DNA of 64,000 bases. Origin: Basidiobolus meristosporus CBS 931.73 (taxonomy: Eukaryota > Basidiobolomycota > Basidiobolomycetes > Basidiobolales > Basidiobolaceae). The stretch is taken from the NCBI GenBank assembly GCA_002104905.1, contig MCFE01000301.1, positions 35,545 through 99,544 of the forward strand, given 5' to 3'. The notes below the pieces were generated by a model. The model saw nothing but the letters and a program-made list of their open reading frames with translations. It had not been told where the DNA came from and did no database searches. Below, piece after piece: positions 6,492 through 63,110 of the stretch (positions are counted from its first letter, which is position 1; each line of letters opens with the position of its first letter). A program made the translations under genes and the position numbers.

Positions 6492-8669
6492 CTAAAACGG
6501 CACGTAGTCTAGCGCTGGTCCAACGGATTCTTGTTTGATTAGATTCTGCTGGCGTTCCAATAGCTCGTTCTCAAGGTCCTGGATACGTCGATTAAGTGCT
6601 AGGAATAGGATTGACCTGGGCAGACTAGTTGCTGTTTGCGATAGATCGATGGCCACTAATGATGCGAACGGTTTAGCCACATGTCGTTCCAGCTTCGTCG
6701 AATATGATGATATCAGATTCATAGTTAAAGTTACTCACCAGAATTCTCGGTCATCCCACTCAGTCTTCTATTATTGAACCAACCGCGGAGTGCATGTAAC
6801 GTTAAATCCATACGGTTAGCGAGCTCGATGATCTGTTGGTGGTTGGGATACGGTGTGAGTTCATAAACTTTTTCCAGCTCCGCCACAACTTCCGGGCCGA
6901 ATAGTAAGAATCCATCTCTTCGGTTCTCCAATTCGGACTTGCGGTCACGACGACGAAGCTCCTTGAACCATCGCTCGATATTCTACGGGAAAGAATGTCA
7001 TTGGATGCATTAATAATAAGCACCTTCGTAGTCACCTCGACAGGACCGCATACCTTGAATGTCTCATTGTACTGGTCTGCGAGGCCTTGTATCATCTCTC
7101 GAGATGGGTATTTCACTTTTTTGTGCATTTCCTCTACAGCCATATGCAGAGGGTCATTGTACTCGCCCACTCTGGACTGCCGTTCACGAAACCAGGCATT
7201 AATCTTAAGATAATCGATCCCAAGCTGCTCAGCCAACTCTCTACGTTGAATAGAAGTGGGGTATCCATGGCACTCTTCGTAGAGCTTGCTCATTGCTTCC
7301 ACAACGTGATCTGGAAACCTGGCCAGCCTGGTAGCTTTCTTGTTTCTAGGCTTGGTACTCTTTTCCGTAAGTTGTCTCTTTTCTGGAACAATCTTCGGAT
7401 GCGGATTCGATGGGTGTTGATAAACATCAATCCCTCTATCTCGATCTTCAGCACGACGCTTATAAAACCAGTGCAATACTGACTAATACAGAGATTAGTC
7501 CAGTGCACTCTCGTATTCACGCACATGTATGTATTCTACCTTTTCACTTCGTTTCAAGTGCTCTGCAAGCTCCTTTAACTGCTCAGGGCTAGGAAACGGC
7601 GTTTGTTCGTAATAGTCGTGCAGCGTTTGTATTGCTTCCGGAGTATATTTGACTAATAAAGGCTTGATCTCGATGCCATTGCTTCTGTCACGATCGCGCC
7701 GCTTGGAAAACCAGCGCTTGATTCTCTGAATTCAGCAGCATAGTTAGAATCTTGAATCGTTCGCCAACTCAATGCAAACACCAACCCGTAAAGTAACGTT
7801 GTTTTCGCTAGCAATTTGCTCCATCACCGGAACTGGTGGGTAGACAGTCTCTGCATAGACTTTTTCACACGACTCCTCGAGTTTCTCCAAGTCGCATGCT
7901 GGAGCACTGCAAACTACTGGAGAAATGATTTCCGCACCTTTCTGACGTAACTGGTTTCGTCTATTCGTAAACCACAAGATGATTTTCTGAACACATTCGA
8001 GTAGGTTTAGACAGGTGTGTCGGTTTGTAAAACAGATGGGTTGAAGAAATCACATCCTACCTTTCTATCCACCCCCAGCTTGTGAGCAAGCCGTGTATAG
8101 TCTTGTGTTGAATGGTATTTACTCTGTTGGAAGATGGGTTCGAGGTAAAAGGCAAGAGAGGATTTTTTGCTGGTATCAATGGGTTCGTGATAGGAGGGAG
8201 TCAAGTAATCGACGCGTTGTTTGGTTTTTGAGTAATACAGTTTCCAAAAATCTCGCACTACTTTCGGGTCTATGTCTATCTCTTTGGCAACCGCCGTCAG
8301 TTGCTCGTCAGTGGGGGAAGCGGTGGCCAAAATGAAGGCTCGAATTTTTTCCACCGCACCAGAACTCAGGTATTTTTCATCGTTCCTAGCGGCCTTCCTT
8401 CGTCGGTTTCTGAACCAGCTTCTTGTGGGCTTAAGGAAAAGTCAGTAAGTGACGGTACTGTAAACGCAGTGTCGGCCGACTGGTGCATATACCTCCTGTT
8501 CTATGGAGCAATCCTCGCAGACCACACTGTATTCATATTGACTGGGGTATGGGTTGCAACTGTAGTACTCTTCTAGACGTTCCCGTAAATCTCGGTCCAA
8601 GTGACGCGTGATGGAGTTTTTGGCAGTTTTTTTTTGTGCTTCGGGGCTGACTTCTGCTTCAGAAGGCAT
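6492..8669 (-). CDS. Poly-homeodomain protein (eight tandem homeodomain-like repeats)
   Basis: Seven exons: 8669-8493, 8429-8061, 7986-7786, 7725-7540, 7482-7054, 6982-6739 and 6598-6492; all GT-AG, phases match, 570 aa. Nearly the whole protein is a string of about 60-residue homeodomain-like units with the spacing 'LA-x12-WF-x-[NK]RR'. Third-helix signatures in order: SWFRNRRRK (HD1, about residues 18-75), a degenerate DFWKLYYSK (HD2, 85-131), LWFTNRRNQ (HD3), RWFSKRRDR (HD4), HWFYKRRAE (HD5), AWFRERQSR (HD6), RWFKELRRR (HD7) and GWFNNRRLS (HD8). The C-terminus is a short predicted coiled coil ('IQDLENELLERQQNLIKQE'). This is presumably a nuclear DNA-binding protein. Five units are cut by a phase-0 intron exactly four residues before the Trp. 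Individual targets and function are unknown. Confidence 0.85.
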
Positions 8670-17282: not shown

Positions 17283-17952
17283 CTAAACAGCATCAGTCAA
17301 CCCTTTTGCCTTTCGCTTAGTAACGGTATGTTCTGCTCCAACTGATTTTAAATTGGTAATCTGTTTGATGTCGGGGTTAAGAAAGCGACATATTTGGATA
17401 GAAGATCAAAATTCTTATTACCAGAGTGTAGTTACTCATCTCTCCCTCATAGCGGGCTTTATCCTGAGCTGCCATTTCAACATATGGCTGACCAACAACA
17501 TGAGATAATGCATTCAAAAGGAGCCAAACAAGAACTACCTTTTTTTCATTTTCGCCCATATTCTTCCATCTGGCTGCCAAAATCTTTACCAAATCAGAGG
17601 GAGTTGCATTAGGATTGTTTTCTTTCTCAGAAGCCCTAATTTTGCATCTTAGTTCATGTATAGGCCTGAAATCCCGGCGACTAAAAAATTACCTTTGTTC
17701 CGACGCGAATATTATATAGGAAGTTCTTGGTCGCTTTGGACGATCTTTTTGATTGTCTTCACCTTTGGTGTTCTTGGACTTTTTCCCTTTCTTGACACCT
17801 TTCTCGGTAGAGGCATTTTGCGCCTGTTGTCTCTTTGGCTTTGAGACTACGTTACATATCACTTTCTGCATTTTGAATGATTTTTGTGTGCCTGTATTGA
17901 TACCTCTGTTGGTTAATTCTTTGGGGATTTTCTCAACACTTGAACATTCCAT
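17283..17952 (-). CDS. HMG-box protein
   Basis: Proposed exons: 17952-17693, 17647-17539, 17487-17422 and 17360-17283; phases agree; about 170 aa. A Lys-rich N-terminal tail leads to one HMG box: 'RPKRPRTSYIIFASEQR', 'NPNATPSDLVKILAARWKNM', 'KPYVEMAAQDKARYEGEM'. It should bind or bend DNA in nuclear chromatin. The first intron is only 45 nt; using the nearer AG would leave 27 nt, too short, so I prefer 17648-17692. The 3' end has two options: reading through to a stop at 17377, or using the donor at 17421 and the acceptor at 17361 to end 'TKRKAKGLTDAV'. The second gives a basic tail and I favour it. Confidence 0.72.
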
Positions 17953-18250
17953 ACTTCCTTTTCCACTCGGCGAGGAATTGGGTCAACTTGAGAGCAGGTA
18001 TACATCTGTTGGCATTTTTATGTCCATCCTAGCCTATCATAGTGCCAAACATTGCGCCACTCAAGTAAATCACAGTCTTGGATATATGCTTTCGGGCTAG
18101 CTATGTGTCATTGAGATTGTAAGTAGTGTAGCATTCAATCAGATGATATTAATCATATGAGTAGAATTGACCTAATGCTCCCATAAATCGAGTCAAGTTT
18201 ATTGATTGATTTCCAATCAGCCTGCATTGCTTGAATGCAAAGCATTCAAA

Positions 18251-23720: not shown

Positions 23721-26700
23721 ATGAGTGGTTCCATCAAGGTAAGCATGGATTTAACGAGTAGTAAGTTTTATGAGACTGTTGCGAATCCTCTGACAAAACA
23801 ATAGTTTGAACTTAATTGGAGTGCCTTAGAGCTGGGGGTTCCAACGAAACCCTACCGTGGCCCACTCACTTTCAGTTGTATAAGTACGTATGGCCTTCAC
23901 GAGATCGGGATTGTTGCTCGGGGTCTACCCGCTTCCATGGAGCTCGCCGATATAAAGAAATACTTCTCTGCCTGGGGTGACGTTGGAACATGCAGCGTGC
24001 TGAAAAGCAATGGTGCGAGTAAAACCGGGTTTATCAATTTCCGACCACCACCGCTTACTCTAGAATTTATGGACCACGACCAGCAACCCGTTCACCAGGG
24101 TGTGAGAGGTAGAACCCTCGAGATAGACTTCACTTCTCAAACCGCCAAAGACCTGCAGCTGCGAGAAAAAGGGGAGCTGAAGAAGAGAGTCATTTACACC
24201 TCGGCAAATTGCTTCGACATGGGGGCGTTTTTGCGTAGCGGTAGGTTTCTACGGCAATGGAGGGCTACTAACCAATGTCTAGTTGAGATCAACCTGAACA
24301 GGCGGATCATATTTCTGAGGTTTCATCACGAAAATGATGATTACCAAATCGGGATTAGGTTTGGTGATGTCCACCGGCAGATTGTGTTAGATAGCAGCGA
24401 AGAAGACGTGTATGTAATGTACATTCAGACCACACATCCCCCTTTTATGTGGCGCCGACAAGAAGAGCCGGCAAGAAGTACCCCGCGTTCAGACAATTGG
24501 TGCGAGGAGAATTCTTGGGTCCGTGTCCCGTATATTGTTGATCAACGTGATGATAACGATGCAAGAATCAGCATTGGGGATTTTGGTGCGTATCGTGTCT
24601 GTGTTCCTTCCATCAACTCTTATGGCGAGCTGTTCAAGGATTGCATCAACGATCTAATGCGCTTTAATCTTACTTCAAACAAGACCAATGCCTCGATTCC
24701 CTCGGTGGTGGATACGTCGACGCTGCCCGTTATAGATATCCATTCGTCGTTCCCGTTCGAGTTGGCCTACTTGACCGAATGTTTGATCAGAGCGCAAAAG
24801 CTTAGCTTATACAACATATCTGAGGAGTGGGTGGCATTCATAAATGGTCTGGATATAGCGGTTGCTAAGAATGTCCTGATGCGTATGACGGAGGCTCGGG
24901 ATGTAATTGAGGATCCTATGGTGTATTCTCAAAGAGTGTTGCCAGAGCTTTCAAGTATCATGGTCAACCTGAAGGATATCTCTGCGCACAACATATGGGT
25001 CCGTAGAGCTGTTGTCACTCCAAGCAAGATCCATCTTCTGCCACCCACTCTGGAACTATCGAACCGTGTATTGAGGCACTTTCACCAATATCAAGAATCC
25101 TTCATCCGGGTGACCTTTTCTGACGAGCATTTCGAGAAGCTAGGGAGTAGCCGGGAGTTGTATCAAACCCTATTGGATCGTTTCGAGGAGGTTTTGACTG
25201 AAGGTTTTGATGTCGCCAATCGTCATTACCGGTTCCTAGCCTTCTCCTCCTCACAACTCCGCGAGCACAGCTGTTGGTTTTTTGCTGATACGCCGGATGG
25301 CATGGACGTCAACGTTATTCGTGGGTGGATGGGGGATTTCAGCGAAATCAAGAACGTGGCTAAACAGGCTGCGCGCATGGGGCAGTGTTTCTCTAGCACC
25401 CGCGCGGTGAAGATTCTAACCAAAAAGCAGATCAAGGAGATACCGGATATAACTCGCAACCGCTACATCTTCTCCGATGGCATAGGCAAGATCGCCATGT
25501 CGTTGGCTACTGAGATTGCTAGCATATACAATCGTGACATCATCCCCGGCGCGTTTCAGATTCGCCTTGGTGGCTATAAGGGGGTTCTCGCAGTTGCACC
25601 CGACGACGAAATGGACGGCTACTTAGTCCACCTGCGTCCAAGCCAATTGAAATTCAAATCTGACCATACTGCACTGGAAATCATCAGGACTGCTGAATAT
25701 ATACCAGCTTATCTCAACCGACAAATCATTGTGCTGTTGACCACCCTGGGGGTCCCTGACCAGGTGTTCGTGGACATGCATGAGAAGTTCCTGCAAGAAG
25801 TGGATGGGATCCTCAGCAACGAGGGATTGTCCTTGAAATTGCTGGCTCTTCACTACAGTTCAAGCTGGGTGAGTGACGTTTTAAGGAAGATGGTGCTTTC
25901 CGGATTTCTGAGGCTAGGAGACACCTTTACCAAGAATTTATTGAGCTTACTTAAGGTCCAGGTTCTGAAAGACATCAAGGAGCGCGCTAGGATACCGATC
26001 GAGCAGGGTGCTCATCTGACAGGTGTTCTAGATGAGACAAACACCTTACGAGAAAATCAAGTGGCTGTTCGTTTCACCGACCCTCACGATCCCAGTACTA
26101 TTAGAAGCTATGTGGGGCCAGTGTTGGTGCTCCGAAGTCCATGTTTGCATCCAGGAGATGTACATATGGCCGAAGCCGTAGATTGCCCCCAGTTGCATTC
26201 TCTTGTCAATTGTATTGCTTTTTCTACGCAAGGCAGAAGGGATCTTCCTAGTCAATGCAGTGGAGGTGATCTTGACGGTGACACGTACATGGCTATATGG
26301 GACGAACGTCTGTTTCCACTACAAGAGAAGCACCCGTCGAGTAACGCTAGTCAGGAGGAGATATCCGATCAAGAGATAACAATCAGAGATACCGTGGATT
26401 TCTTCCTCAATTACATTATCACCGACAACCTGGGTGAGATTGCCAATTCCCACCTAGCCTGGGCCGACCAGACACCGGAATCTGCATTATCGGTTCAGTG
26501 CGTTCTACTGTCACAACTGCATGACCAAGCAGTGGATTTCATCAAAACCGGAGTTCCTGCGGAGATGGTCTCCTCACTACGCCCGAGTGTCTGGCCGGAT
26601 TTCATGAACAAGCTGCCTAGAAAATCATACGAGTCCACGAAAGCTCTGGGCGTAATGTACAGAAGTGGTGCCAAGAGGCTAAGCCGCAATTTCAAGCACA

Positions 26701-27221
26701 CCGGCGACCTAGCGGTTTGTTTCGACGAGAAGCTGGTTGTGCCTGGGTACGAAGCGTACATAGTGGAGGCCAGACGGTTGAAGCATGAATACGATATAAT
26801 CCTCAGAGATCTGATGAACCAGTATGAAATCAAGACCGAGGGTGAGGTGATCTCGGGGTATATCCAGACCTTCCCATCGATGGCGAGCCGTAAAAAAGAT
26901 AAGTTCGTCCTTAGAGAAACCCTCGGGAACGTGGTCAACGCTATATGGAAAGCCTTTCGGGAGAAATTCGACGACTTTTCAGCCGCTGCTGCCGATGACC
27001 AATGGCGCAGGAGAAAAGCCAGTGCCTGGTACTATGTGACATGTCATCCAGACGAAATCGAGCTACAGAAGAATAGGGAATATTGGGGAGTTGATGATAC
27101 AGACACCCCGGTGGCCTGTGCGACAATCATGCACAGGCAGGACGAAAAGCCGACATTCCTCTCGTTTCCCTGGATTGTTCACGATATATTGCGGCTGATC
27201 TTGGAGTCAGAGAATCTTTAA
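23721..27221 (+). CDS. RNA-dependent RNA polymerase with N-terminal RRM
   Basis: Exon 1 (23721-23738, 'MSGSIK') splices over a 66-nt intron to one long exon, 23805-27221; 1144 aa. A cellular RdRP of the RNA-silencing type (QDE-1/RDR), making dsRNA from single-stranded templates. The N-terminus carries an RRM-like fold ('HEIGIVARGLPAS', 'VGTCSVLKSNGASKTGFINF'). The core shows 'FSDGIGKIAMSLA', 'AFQIRLGGYKGVLAVAP' and 'RSPCLHPGDV'. The catalytic loop is 'CSGGDLDGDTYMAIWD' with the three Asp at about 828, 830 and 832. The frame continues upstream of the internal ATG at 23937, which is why exon 1 is placed at 23721. It is intact, and sits upstream of a cluster rich in inverted repeats. Confidence 0.93.
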
Positions 27222-37081: not shown

Positions 37082-37792
37082 TTAATATTTGCTAGGCAGC
37101 TTTGGTTTAGGATTTACATTCAATGTATCATCTTTGGTCGCTTCTGTCTTTCCTTTAGTACTAATCTGCTCTGTGTCCTTATCTGCATTATCCTTGGCAT
37201 TACCGTTCAGTTTCTCATCAGCTGCATGAGGATGCATTTTGGCTGCCGTGTACTCGGCATCGGCTTGAGCCTGCTTGGCTGCTCCTTCAGCTTGTAATCG
37301 CTCGTTCCCGAGAATATTTCCAGCGGTTTCTTGGACATAGCCAGTAACATACTTAACGTTTGCATTGAGTTTTTCATTACTGGTGACCGAACCAATAGTA
37401 TCTTTGGCATATGCCTTGAGTTTTTCCCCTGTGCCCTCCGATTCTCCCTGTACTCGAGCAGCATCGTTTTCGGAATTGGCGCAGGCTTGGTTTGCTACCC
37501 CTTCAGCCTTTATTTGATCATTTCCGATAGTGTTGCCAGCAGCCTCTTGGGCATAACCAGTAGCATATTTGACGTTGGCGTTATCAACCACAGTATCAGA
37601 AGCATTGGTTATGCTGTCTTTCAGTTGTTTGCCTGAATTTCGGAGATTTTTTTGCTCGTGAGTAATCTGATTTTCGACTTCGGCTTGCTTTGCTGCTCCT
37701 TCTGCTTTCATTTTTTCATTGCCAAGGACGTTACCAGCGGTCTCCTGAATGTACCCTGCAGCGTACTTGATGTTAGCGTTGACTTTGTTCAT
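37082..37792 (-). CDS. Expanded CsbD-like protein with three divergent modules, copy 13
   Basis: One 236-aa uninterrupted frame. It contains three CsbD starts: 'MNKVNANIKYAAGYIQETAG', 'NANVKYATGYAQEAAGNTIG' (about residue 70) and 'NANVKYVTGYVQETAGNILG' (about 143). The usual second module is degraded or missing after each, and the C-terminus is Lys/Asp-rich (KPKLPSKY). It is far more diverged than the 96-aa copies yet open throughout, which suggests selection. TGACGTCA at 37917-37924 lies 125 nt upstream of the start. Confidence 0.85.
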   Translation of the reverse strand: MNKVNANIKYAAGYIQETAGNVLGNEKMKAEGAAKQAEVENQITHEQKNLRNSGKQLKDSITNASDTVVDNANVKYATGYAQEAAGNTIGNDQIKAEGVANQACANSENDAARVQGESEGTGEKLKAYAKDTIGSVTSNEKLNANVKYVTGYVQETAGNILGNERLQAEGAAKQAQADAEYTAAKMHPHAADEKLNGNAKDNADKDTEQISTKGKTEATKDDTLNVNPKPKLPSKY

Positions 37793-38247
37793 GATCCTTT
37801 TTTTGCATACTTGGAATCCATACGGCCTATTTATATATCGATTCTAGCAGATGAAATCAGGCAAACCTAGTACGTGTTAGTGGTGACTGGTTCTGTTGGT
37901 TGTGCTTGACGTCAGTATTAAAACTTCAGTAATGAGCGTACTAATGATATCAGCCATGTAATACTCAGATCTGATTATCACTAGACCAGATTGTGTGTGT
38001 TGATAACCGTAACTCAAACTAAATGGATTGAAAACAGTTAACAATGATTAAACGAGTTCTGGCCTTCATAATCTATAACCATCATAGAGGTCCGTACACT
38101 AGGAACAATCTCTAGTCTCCACAATGAGTGGTAGACATGTACACATTCAACTTTGATTAAGGTAGTAATTAGTTTTATTTAAAGGAATTGTGAATTTACA
38201 TAAAAGTTGCTTCTCTAAATAGTCCTGAACATTGGATGCTATTGCAT

Positions 38248-58832: not shown

Positions 58833-59180
58833 TGTTATAAGATTTGTAATTCCACCTAAATATTCACCTAACTTAGTCACTTAGATCACTACCCTCAAAT
58901 CCTAGAGAATACTGACCAAAATCCTTGTTGGGATTTACTTAGAATATTTTCACCAAAATACCAGGTACCCAGAACATGAAAATTCACAAAGTTGTCCAAA
59001 CAGCCCAAAGCTTTGCACACATGTTCTTGGGACCTTTCTTAACCTATTCAATGTGTTTGTAATGCCAAGACCATGTAAAAGTATAAATACTACTTTTACA
59101 TTCAATAAATTATTAGGTGAAAACCACATAATCTACTTGTTCTCCCAATCACTTCCAATATCTCCAAGACTCTTACAACA
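58833..59180 (+). repeat. Copia 5' LTR
   Basis: 348 bp, starts TGTTATAAGATTTG, ends CTCTTACAACA. A TATA-like TATAAATAC lies near 59081. It differs from the 3' LTR by scattered substitutions and small indels, so the insertion is not recent. Confidence 0.9.
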
Positions 59181-59196
59181 GGTTATGAGCCCCAAG
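59181..59196 (+). promoter_or_regulatory. Primer binding site, initiator tRNA-Met half-molecule type
   Basis: Directly after the 5' LTR, GGTTATGAGCCCCAAG is complementary to the anticodon arm of initiator tRNA-Met (…GGGCTCATAACC…) rather than to a tRNA 3' end. Drosophila copia is known to use such a cleaved half-tRNA primer; the same mode is inferred here. Confidence 0.65.
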
Positions 59197-60012
59197 CTGT
59201 CACTCTCTGCAATGTCTACTACTGCTATTACTGGAATTTTACCTTCTGCTGAAAAGATGGATGGATATAACTACCAAGTGTGGAAGGTGAAGATGAAGAT
59301 GCTGCTACAAGAAAGAGGCCTATGGGATATTGTCATGGGAGAAGAATGCCCTCCTAAAAACATGGGAGAGGAAGCCTTAAAGTACCAGAAGAAAGAACAA
59401 AGTGCCTTTAACTGCATTTGCCTTAATGTCAAGGACAAATTGCTAATTCAATGCTCAAGAGCAAAAATGGCAAAGAATGCCTGGAAAGCATTAGAAGACA
59501 CCTACCAGTCATGTTCAGCTGCCAAGAAAATTTATCTGAGACACAAATTCTTTACTACAAAGATGCTACCAGGAGAAAATATGAAAAATCTAATTAACCA
59601 AATTACCCTGCTGGTAGATGAGATGGAATCTGTGGGCATACCAACTACTGATGAGGATGTGATAGTTACCATCCTGAATAGCCTGACAGACAAGTTTCAG
59701 GGCCTTGTATCAGCCCTAGAGTCCAGAGCTGAAGATTTGACCTTAAATTACGTATATGGAAGGCTCCTGGATGAAGAATTAAGAAAATCAAGCGCCAATA
59801 AGAAGGAAGAAGAAAATGCTTTAATAAGCAATGATAACCAACAAAGGAGGTACCCAAGACCCTACAAAGGCAACAGCACCTGCTTTGTAACTACTGCAAA
59901 AGGAAAGGACACACATCAGACCGGTGTCTCAAAAAGAAAGATAATCAGCAAAAGAAGCCTGAACATGGAAATGCTGCAAGAACTGAAGATAGACTACTCA
60001 TATCTGCACTAA
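59185..60012 (+). pseudogene. Copia gag remnant
   Basis: From the ATG at 59185 the frame gives a copia-type gag ('YNYQVWKVKMKMLLQERGLW', 'AKNAWKALEDTY', 'LRHKFFTTKM', 'NLINQITLLVDEM'). Near 59870 the frame slips: the zinc knuckle ('CNYCKRKGHTSDRC') lies in the +1 frame. Confidence 0.85.
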
Positions 60013-60044
60013 ATATGACCACAAACAAGGATTCTCAGATGTGA

Positions 60045-61215
60045 TATATTGACTCTGGAGCATCTCAACACTTTACACACCAAAAAGAACTTTTTACCCA
60101 ATATCAAGAAATTCCAATTAAGAAGGCTTTCATGGGTGACAATAGAACACTTGATGCAGTGGGAGAAGGAACTATCCAAGTAAACCTTAGAAGCAGTGAA
60201 GGAAGCCATACACTGACCTTCAAAGAAGTACTCTATGTACCAGAAATAGCCAAGAACCTACTCTCTGTAAGCAAGGCCAGAGCAGAAGGACTCAGTTTCA
60301 GTTTTGACAATTCTGGATGCAGGATCACTGATCAAAATGGTGCTCATATTGCTTTGGGCATCAGAGATCAGAGTCTATACAAGTTGACTTATAATCCATC
60401 ATATCTGGAAGCCAATATAAGTAACTTAAATGAAGAAATACTAATGCTTTGGCATAGGAGATTTGGACACATCAATTTTGATTATTTGCGTAAAATTATC
60501 AAAGATCAGCTAATTTCTGGAGTGAAAGTTGATCCCCCAGCTAATTTGGAGCACTGTAAAGCCAGCATATATGGGAAACAAGCCAGACAACTGTTCAAGA
60601 GCTCTGGGTTAATCAAAACTAAGAAAAATTAGATCTAGTTCACTCAGATCTGTGTGGACCTATGCAAAATTTATCCTTAGGTGGGATGAAGTATTTAATC
60701 ACTTTTATTGATGATTATACAAGATACACATGGGCCTACTTCATGGAGAGAAAGGAAGAAGCTCTGTCTAAGCTCAGGGAGCTTAAAGCCATGGTGGAGA
60801 GAGAAACTGGTGAAAAAATCAAGAAAATATGCTCTGACAAAGGTGGAGAATATACCTCAAAACTCTTCATTCACTTCTGCAAAATTCATGGGATAAAGCA
60901 AGAGACTACTGTACCATACTCTCCACAGCAAAGTGGAGAAGCAGAATGAGCTAACAGATCAATAATTGATATGGCAAGATCTATGATCCATGATCAAAAA
61001 TTATCCTATGATTTTTGGGCGGAATCAGTTGCCACTGCTGTATACCTTAAAAATAGGAGTTATAACAGAATACTTTGTGATTCTACTTCATTTGAGGCAT
61101 GGCATGGATACAGATCAAGTGCAGAACATCCAAGAATATTTGGGTGTACCGCATATACCAAAAAACTGGCCTGAAATCAGTCAAAATTTGAGCCAAAAAG
61201 TGTAAAATGCATATT
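60045..61215 (+). pseudogene. Copia protease and integrase remnant
   Basis: Protease active site 'YIDSGAS' follows a TGA where Trp is usual. Then gag-pre-integrase 'LWHRRFGHINFDYLRK' and the integrase core 'HSDLCGPM', 'TFIDDYTRYTWAYF', 'CSDKGGEYTS', 'PYSPQQSGEAE' with a TGA in place of the expected Arg codon just after it. Frameshifts near 60632 and 61170 also break it. Confidence 0.85.
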
Positions 61216-61216
61216 T

Positions 61217-62361
61217 TTGTGCTACTGCAATGAGAGTAAGGCATACAGACTCTACAATACCAAAGCAAAGAAGCTGATCAAGTCCAGGGATGTGTTTTTT
61301 GATGAAAATTCAAAATTCTCACAAAAAATGACATCAGATGATGACAAAAATTTGATCACAAGTCCACCAATTGTCAGGATTGCATCAGAGCAAAACAATG
61401 AAGATTTTTTCACTCCAGAGGACTCTACAACTGTGGTTCAGCCAGAATCAGTGCCCAGGAATATCCCAGAAGTGATCATTCTAGTATCAAATGCCCGGAG
61501 ATCCAATTGGACAAGAAATAGCCCAAATTACTATATCAATGAGGGTACAAACTTAGTCTATGCCTATTCCGTCCATGTTGATGAAACCCAGACTGTACAA
61601 GAGGCCCTAAATAGCCCTCAGACAAAGTTTTGGAGATCTGCAATGACTGATGAATATCAGGCCCTGATGGAAAATCAAACTTGGGACTTAGTCAAATTAC
61701 CAATCAACCAAAAATCAATTGGATGCAGATGGGTCTTCAAGACAAAATACAAGGCTGATGGTACAATTGAAAGATACAAAGCAAGACTTGTAGCCAAAGG
61801 ATACTCTCAAACAAAAGGACTTAACTATACTGAGACCTTTGCACTGGTAGCCAAGTTTAATTCCATCAGATTAATTTTGGCTATTGCAGCCAAATATAAG
61901 ATTTTTATTCATCAATGGATGAAAAAACTGCATTTTTGAATGGATAACTTGATGAGGACATGTATATGAACCAGCCTGATGGGTTTGTTGACCAAGATAA
62001 CCCCCGTTTGGTCTGCAAGCTTAAAAAGTCACTATATGGTCTCAAACAATCACCAAGAGCCTGGAATTGCAAGATAGATTCTTATTTGGAATCTTTGAGT
62101 TTCAAAAGGAGTAATGCTGACTATAGTATATACTATAGGCCAGAAAGAGCAAATCCAGTTCTATTAGCTCTATATGTGGATGATCTTATTATAGCCACCA
62201 ATAACTTAGAAACAATGGAAGAGACTAAATCCAGCCTATCTAAGGAGTTCAAGATGTCCAATCTAGGAGAACTTAGTTACTACTTAGGGATTAAGTTCTC
62301 TATAGACAGAAGTACCCAGACTATTGCCCCAAGCAATCCAAGTATATTCAAGATATACTAA
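61217..62361 (+). pseudogene. Copia reverse transcriptase remnant
   Basis: RVT_2 landmarks are 'RWVFKTKYKADGTIERYKAR', 'LVAKGYSQTKGLNYTETF', 'LVCKLKKSLYGLKQSPRAWN' and the catalytic 'LYVDDLIIA'. A one-base deletion near 61915 and a TAA shortly after it split the domain at the first catalytic Asp region ('MDEKTAFLNG'). Confidence 0.88.
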
Positions 62362-62372
62362 AGAAGTACAAA

Positions 62373-63110
62373 ATGGAAGACTGTAAACCGGCAGCTACCC
62401 CAATGGAGACAAACCTTAACTTGGTCAAAACTCAACCAAATCAAGAGAGCTTGGTGCCATCTGAAAGCCCTGACTTTCCTTATCAATCTATAGTTGGCAG
62501 TCTGATGTACATCATGCTTGGAACATGTCCAGATATCTCATATTCAGTGGGAGTTGTCAGCCAACATAATCAGAACTATGGATCTGATCACATTGCAGCA
62601 GTTAAGTGGATTTTTAGATACCTAAAAGGAACTGCTGATATCTGCTTAAGATACACTCATAAGGATTCAGAACAGGATCTTGTGGGATACTCTGATGCTG
62701 ATTGGGGACAAAATTTGGAAGACAGAAGATCCACCACAGGATACACCTTTCTTTACTGTAAAGGAGCAATTTCATGGAATTTAAGAAAGCAACCAACCGT
62801 AGCACTTTCTACCACAGAGGCAGAGTACGTGGCAGCCTGTGAAGCTACAAAAGAAGCAATGTGGCTAAGAAAGCTTTTTACAGATTCAGGCCTATGTCAA
62901 AAAATGCCTATTACTTTATTTCAAGATAGTCAAGGATGTATACAATTAGGTAGAAATCCAGCTTTTCATGCTAGAACGCAAGCACATAGATATTAGACAT
63001 CATTTCATACGTGAAGCTATACAGAATAACTTAGTTAGCTTAGCTTCACTGTCCTACAGATGAAATGATTGCAGACATATTTACCAAACCATTAGCTAGA
63101 GAACAAGTTT
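62373..63110 (+). pseudogene. Copia RNase H remnant
   Basis: Shows 'PYQSIVGSLMYI', 'DISYSVGVVSQ', 'GYSDADWGQNLEDRRSTTGY' (catalytic Asp), 'ALSTTEAEYVAACEATKEA' (catalytic Glu) and then a frameshift before 'HIDIRHHFIREA'. Confidence 0.88.

Follow-up and report, generated by a model that had tools for sequence, protein, structure and literature searches.

A gene of Basidiobolus encoding an array of eight divergent homeodomain units

Multi-homeodomain proteins in other organisms

The usual view of fungal homeodomain proteins is that of regulators with a single domain. Fungi and single-cell organisms are described as having usually fewer than a dozen homeobox genes (PMC4901127). The first-pass annotation of the locus reported here held that multi-homeodomain proteins are mostly known from animals, which agrees with the accounts in PMC4448998 and PMC2211742 but needs one non-animal exception, the double homeobox genes of Dictyostelium (PMC4901127). 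In C. elegans, CEH-100 is a protein of twelve packed homeodomains, CEH-99 carries four and CEH-83 five and, with the exception of ceh-79, the multi-homeodomain genes of the nematode are described as having no obvious orthologues in other Caenorhabditis species (PMC4448998). The same account presents the HOCHOB motif, in which the first homeodomain has a changed helix 3 and may have lost DNA binding, and in which the linker of about 17 residues bears conserved cysteines (PMC4448998). Dux, Zfhx and Zhx/Homez are named as the human families carrying multiple homeoboxes, and DUXA is described as having an intron within each homeobox (PMC2211742). In the open-licence literature, subscription journals being outside the scope, we found no description of a fungal many-homeodomain protein, as the first-pass annotation had supposed for an eight-domain array; the phrase "two homeodomains" occurs there in a Pholiota nameko paper and the word "homeobox" in a Conidiobolus paper.

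We describe here a gene of Basidiobolus meristosporus that codes for a large fungal homeodomain array, a variant of the multi-homeodomain proteins already known. Its nearest parallels, by analogy, are found among animal arrays, CEH-100 of C. elegans for example. Like CEH-100, CEH-99 and CEH-83, the array combines several divergent homeodomains per protein with a narrow taxonomic range, and it shares tight packing with CEH-100; unlike the CEH genes, whose likeness is judged from their published descriptions, it is matched unit by unit by an orthologue from another species. The DUX and DUX4 proteins contain two homeodomains each as against eight in Basidiobolus and the kinship is found only at the homeodomain level: DUX4 chains match a profile of the seven units other than unit 2 twice per chain, and in a search with the whole protein DUX4 6e8c matches units 3-4 weakly (E 5.6e-4, with no single stretch passing). 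As regards ZHX/HOMEZ, unit 5 weakly matches PF11569 (Homez) with 14.4 bits, below the cut-off of 21, and no zinc finger family was detected in the array protein by Pfam at E up to 1, which places it outside ZHX. The Dictyostelium double homeobox genes and Caenorhabditis HOCHOB, as described, share with the array a lineage-specific multiplication of homeodomains, with two homeodomains per motif instead of eight units.

One gene with eight homeodomain units

The window analysed, a 64-kb stretch of DNA, belongs to a contig (C538) of the 89-Mb, 1311-contig genome assembly of B. meristosporus, a species placed in Basidiobolomycota, an early-diverging fungal lineage. The whole gene occupies 6492..8669 on the minus strand, with its ATG at 8669 and its stop ending at 6492, and its seven exons encode 589 aa in a splice model supported by the deposited protein and by the B. 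ranarum orthologue. All six introns are short (57-83 bases each) and have GT...AG borders. The coordinates, the strand and the six introns of the first-pass annotation were thereby borne out, and its protein length of 570 aa was revised to 589 aa (594 as deposited). The protein search identified the deposited counterpart as K493DRAFT_303721 (P0001; 594 aa, Basidiobolus meristosporus CBS 931.73), which differs from our model by five extra residues (VEYIH) at intron 4, resulting from an alternative donor. We preferred the 589-aa model because the aligned B. ranarum protein displays a gap exactly where the deposited one has VEYIH and because its total PF00046 score is higher (198.1 bits versus 187.5 for the deposited protein). 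That the locus encodes one protein, as first proposed, is supported by the deposited models of B. meristosporus and B. ranarum, a single protein in either species, on which ground several separate genes were rejected. A recent tandem repeat or an assembly artefact was likewise rejected, the units being only 8-27% identical in register and Tandem Repeats Finder listing nothing within the gene. No Rfam family matched anywhere in the 64-kb window at gathering scores, and no NCBIfam family matched the B. meristosporus or the B. ranarum protein.

The protein consists almost entirely of homeodomain units, all encoded on the minus strand. Residue 51 is Asn in homeodomains 1 (aa 17-76, 8379..8621, 33.4 bits against PF00046), 3 (aa 140-199, 7936..8189, 39.7 bits) and 8 (aa 475-534, 6743..6922, 45.1 bits, the top score of the eight), Lys in homeodomains 4 (aa 207-266, 7675..7914, 30.4 bits) and 5 (aa 269-328, 7432..7668, 43.0 bits), and Glu in homeodomains 6 (aa 361-420, 7156..7335, 33.1 bits, with a basic linker ahead) and 7 (aa 412-471 in the W48 register, 6932..7182, 24.5 bits). 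The homeodomain-like unit 2 (aa 73-132 in the W48 register, 8211..8390) has Leu51, and FW in place of WF. In the W48 register, the first positions of unit 2 overlap unit 1 and those of homeodomain 7 overlap the end of unit 6; the position-48 anchors are 51-92 residues apart, six of the seven spacings being 67 or less. Introns 1 (8430..8492), 2 (7987..8060), 3 (7726..7785), 4 (7483..7539, with the donor favoured by the orthologue) and 5 (6983..7053), all on the minus strand and in phase 0, follow position 43 of homeodomains 1, 3, 4, 5 and 7, respectively. Homeodomains 6 and 8 have no intron, and intron 6 (6656..6738, minus strand, phase 1) is outside every homeodomain.

PF00046 finds seven stretches in each of the 589-aa model, the deposited 594-aa protein and the B. 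ranarum protein, and not one or two, and a profile comparison backs unit 2, in agreement with the eight homeodomain units seen by the first-pass annotation. Tested alone, seven of the eight units exceed the curated PF00046 cut-off (24.5-45.1 bits versus 22.9), and unit 2 gives no Pfam homeodomain match. With a leave-one-out profile, units 1 and 3-8 score 25.6-43.9 bits, each above 1000/1000 shuffles, and unit 2 scores 7.1 bits, a value matched or beaten by 1/1000 shuffles. In a profile-profile comparison, unit 2 from the two species matched the other homeodomains with 89% probability over 45 columns (register 6-50 to 6-50), and none of 200 column shuffles reached its score. Because this match is in the same register and was equalled by no shuffle, unit 2 is best read as a strongly diverged eighth homeodomain that has decayed. 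Its early description as degenerate also holds, FW occurring in both B. meristosporus and B. ranarum, and the Trp48-Phe49 core of helix 3 is present in the seven other units. The spacing LA-x12-WF, initially claimed for seven of eight units, is literally found in only five (3, 5, 6, 7 and 8), and the relaxed form x[A/C]-x12-[WF or FW] fits all eight.

Compared with solved structures, the profile of the seven units other than unit 2 matches known homeodomains, goosecoid among them (3.7e-13). The whole protein also passes PF05920 (Homeobox_KN) by a summed score of 92.8 versus a cut-off of 24, single units all remaining below 24 (highest 23.1), and PF23739 (HTH_72; 35.7 versus 27), which no single unit passes. 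The summed PF05920 score speaks for membership of the TALE class, which was nevertheless rejected: the units align in one register and do not have the three-residue insertion that separates helix 1 from helix 2 in that class, unit 6 being the only one with one extra loop residue. A phage minor spike protein also listed in the PDB search with the whole protein (E 3.7e-4) was taken as a chance match.

Outside the units, the basic linker before unit 6 could be a nuclear localisation signal, and an amphipathic, coiled-coil-like stretch conserved in B. ranarum was identified by a crude heptad count near the C-terminus (6528..6614, minus strand). It ends near an I/V-K-Q-E motif, kept in B. ranarum, which we take to be of the sumoylation type. 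The same crude count is higher at the unit 6/7 junction (0.75) than in the C-terminal stretch (0.625), through which the protein might dimerise.

Orthologue, origin and genomic setting

The B. ranarum orthologue, K7432_000157 (P0002), has 588 aa and is 73% identical over 100% of the query; the two proteins, one sequence per species being compared, are co-linear over their full length. In a tree of homeodomains all units (8/8) join the unit at the same position of the B. ranarum protein, each pair having starred support, and the array therefore predates the split between B. meristosporus and B. ranarum. From this one pairwise comparison at the protein level, which leaves out the N-terminal (14/25 identical) and C-terminal (37/53) parts, homeodomain cores are better conserved than linkers (310/392 versus 70/116 identical residues, p 8.6e-5), the more so when unit 2 is omitted (284/343 versus 70/116, p 1.7e-6). 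Unit 2 itself, the lowest of all units, is no better kept than the linkers (26/49 versus 70/116, p 0.39). The cores of units 4-7 (169/196) are kept no less well than those of units 1, 3 and 8 (115/147), the difference not being significant (p 0.06). Helix 3 identity between the species amounts to 13, 9, 17, 16, 12, 16, 17 and 16 of 17 residues for units 1-8.

The introns located inside homeodomains (units 1, 3, 4, 5 and 7) all lie after position 43 in phase 0 (5/5), a coincidence expected with a chance of about 1e-9 for five random placements in a 180-base box. Since these five introns share one codon boundary and phase, the simplest reading is that the units have a common origin through repeated internal duplication of an intron-bearing homeobox; parallel intron gain at a favoured site could also account for the shared position. 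Such duplications would be old, because the units are only 8-27% identical. The tree (56 columns, 46 rows, long branches) neither supports nor rejects a single origin, the array forming one group in 21% of bootstrap trees with a p-AU of 0.438; the free tree requires two changes, unit 2 falling outside and four TALE-like rows inside. This tree used 30 of the 38 other homeodomain matches of the genome, four split, one short and three identical ones having been dropped.

These 38 PF00046 matches outside the array gene, 34 of them with helix 3 in the same match and four interrupted, amount to a large homeobox complement for a fungus. Identical or near-identical homeodomains recur among them (for example on contigs C735/C924, C749/C729 and C407/C1206), which suggests duplicated genes or separately assembled haplotypes. 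In three of the four interrupted homeodomains (C592, C1135 and C386, the fourth being on C596) the intron lies between positions 46 and 47, and not after 43. With a profile trained on the array units too, no second separate homeodomain was detected on the same strand at any of 37 other loci, about 2 kb being scanned on each side, a result which fits the one-domain view of fungal homeodomain proteins, also expressed in the first-pass annotation. One lead (L016) seemed to span several units and turned out to be a one-homeodomain gene. The second same-strand row of L042 (2.7 bits, E 21) was taken as noise, those of L053, L054 and L057 (10.1-10.6 bits) are the second exon of the same split homeodomain, and L036 consists of two genes on opposite strands.

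No other close copy of the array was found in its own genome, the remaining matches having E 0.0026 or weaker; since the PF00046 genome scan at E 0.001 caught only 2/8 array units, its counts are lower bounds and an equally diverged array could escape it. Word-based protein searches, which depend on common 5-residue words and comparable length and could therefore overlook distant arrays, retrieved only the two Basidiobolus proteins and no relatives outside the genus. They were conducted with the whole protein (7999 candidates sharing most words scored), with region 365-594 of P0001 (1077 candidates) and with region 1-350 of P0002 (2438 candidates).

The window also contains, on the minus strand, an HMG-box gene of several exons (17377-17982, with the genome-scan match at 17539-17637), and a 253-aa open frame with CsbD-like domains (37082-37843; PF05532, 77.9 bits, two stretches), a family of bacterial stress proteins. 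On the plus strand, a long open frame (23805-27221; PF05183, 614.5 bits) codes for an RNA-dependent RNA polymerase, a family involved in RNA silencing, and there are pieces of a copia-type LTR retrotransposon (58906-62996) with gag and reverse transcriptase matches in interrupted frames. Elsewhere in the genome, contigs C883, C351 and C125 each display three HMG-box matches within about 900 bases on one strand, and multi-HMG-box proteins may thus also exist in B. meristosporus.

Residue 51 and possible functions of the array

Asn51 is a near-universal base contact of homeodomains. In the W48 register, residue 51 of units 1-8 reads N, L, N, K, K, E, E, N, identically in B. ranarum, and Asn51 is thus found in 3/8 units only, a feature passed over in the first-pass annotation. 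The other homeobox genes of B. meristosporus belong to the same domain family, yet showed no second separate same-strand homeodomain at the 37 loci scanned and have Asn51 in all 34 scored cases (four split ones were not scorable); the difference between 3/8 and 34/34 has a p value of 6.6e-5, the 34 including close paralogues and not being independent. The lack of Asn51 makes it less likely that the other five units are canonical DNA-binding homeodomains, their membership of the profile being unaffected. Units 1, 3 and 8 keep Trp48, Phe49, Asn51 and Arg53, in B. ranarum too. Because units 4-7 are still well conserved without Asn51, its loss there is, as judged from this comparison of two species, not simple decay. 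Set beside the first-pass annotation, the case has gained through the conserved orthologue and the shared intron site, and has lost in that the eight units are not all ordinary readers of DNA.

Our preferred reading, which we regard as evenly poised between right and wrong, is that the array is a dimeric nuclear regulator gripping DNA with units 1, 3 and 8 and using units 4-7 for other contacts. It would be a single-copy regulator, observed to date in Basidiobolus alone, which would have arisen when an intron-bearing homeobox was duplicated internally again and again and the copies then diverged deeply. Units 1, 3 and 8, with their four retained residues, would most likely be the ones to contact DNA in a base-specific way; units 4-7 would most likely serve partner proteins, spacing or non-standard backbone binding, and unit 2 would be a spacer that has decayed. 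Two copies of the protein would pair through the C-terminal amphipathic stretch, and the dimer would read several spaced sites. We infer the nuclear location, the DNA binding, the division of labour among units and the dimerisation from sequence features; helix 3 of unit 5, only 12/17 identical between species, was counted against this reading. A bolder proposal, plausible to us although we lean against it, would see the eight units as a conserved scaffold: a few of them would hold DNA, and those with Lys51 or Glu51 would make up a separate, selected class of non-DNA or altered-specificity homeodomains that assemble partners. The array would then be a fungal invention, independent of the arrays of animals.

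Alternatively, every homeodomain but unit 2 might contact DNA, the protein reading one long composite site of about seven modules with Lys51 and Glu51 as altered specificities. The PF00046 scores of units 1 and 3-8, each over the cut-off, are consistent with this possibility, as are the WF-x-K-R-R retained in helix 3 of units 4 and 5 and the net charge of helix 3 (positions 42-58) in units 4 (+7) and 7 (+5); this charge is no more than +1 in unit 5 and +2 in unit 6, however, and five of the eight units are without Asn51, two of them with Glu51, as against its presence in all 34 other scored homeodomains of the genome. The long composite DNA sites imagined in the first-pass annotation, which presume the usual DNA contact, are thereby weakened, and we consider this reading doubtful, with a modest chance of being correct. 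A small chance is left for an array acting mainly as a protein-binding (or RNA-binding) scaffold that has kept marginal DNA binding at most and employs the homeodomain fold anew as a repeat. The conservation of units 4-7 in a protein where most units have no Asn51 would suit such a scaffold, as would the tight packing with anchors 51-92 residues apart and the precedent of the first HOCHOB homeodomain, described as possibly having lost DNA binding (PMC4448998); W48, F49, N51 and R53, kept in units 1, 3 and 8 of both species, argue against it.

A fast-drifting, lightly constrained gene with extra homeodomains devoid of function has a very slight chance: unit 2 shows no more conservation than the linkers (p 0.39) and no relative was found outside Basidiobolus in the word-based protein searches, but the cores of the other seven units are better kept than the linkers (p 1.7e-6) and the orthologue is intact and co-linear. 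The last reading, that of a mating-type or other sex-determining homeodomain regulator, was also among the first guesses made for this gene. HMG-box and homeodomain genes are the usual mating regulators of fungi, an HD1/HD2 mating locus being a pair of one-homeodomain genes, and the sole weak hint in its favour is the HMG-box gene that shares the contig at a distance of about 9 kb. This HMG match is partial and, with 26.1 bits, the weakest of 44 listed; it may correspond to an ordinary HMGB-type protein. With at least 44 HMG-box matches in 89 Mb, the chance that one lies no more than 10 kb from any given gene is about 1%. In an exon-wise scan of the contig, whose counts are lower bounds, no partner homeobox gene was detected, both PF00046 matches (E 0.001) lying inside the array gene, and there is thus no HD1/HD2 pair among the genes detected. 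Given in addition that the neighbours comprise a V-ATPase-type subunit, Syf1, a kinase of the mitochondrial dehydrogenase kinase type, the RNA-dependent RNA polymerase and a Ras-like gene (the last recognized by eye), and that the proteins of the two species, one sequence each, are co-linear over their full length, a mating role for the array is unlikely, and we give this reading the slightest chance of all.

Whichever part units 4-7 would play beside the putative DNA-gripping units 1, 3 and 8 of our preferred reading, the same unit order in two species, the shared intron site and the split at residue 51 together constitute a natural experiment on the multiplication and reassignment of a DNA-binding fold. 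The Basidiobolus array offers for this purpose a case apart from the nematode and vertebrate arrays, in which each unit can be tested alone.
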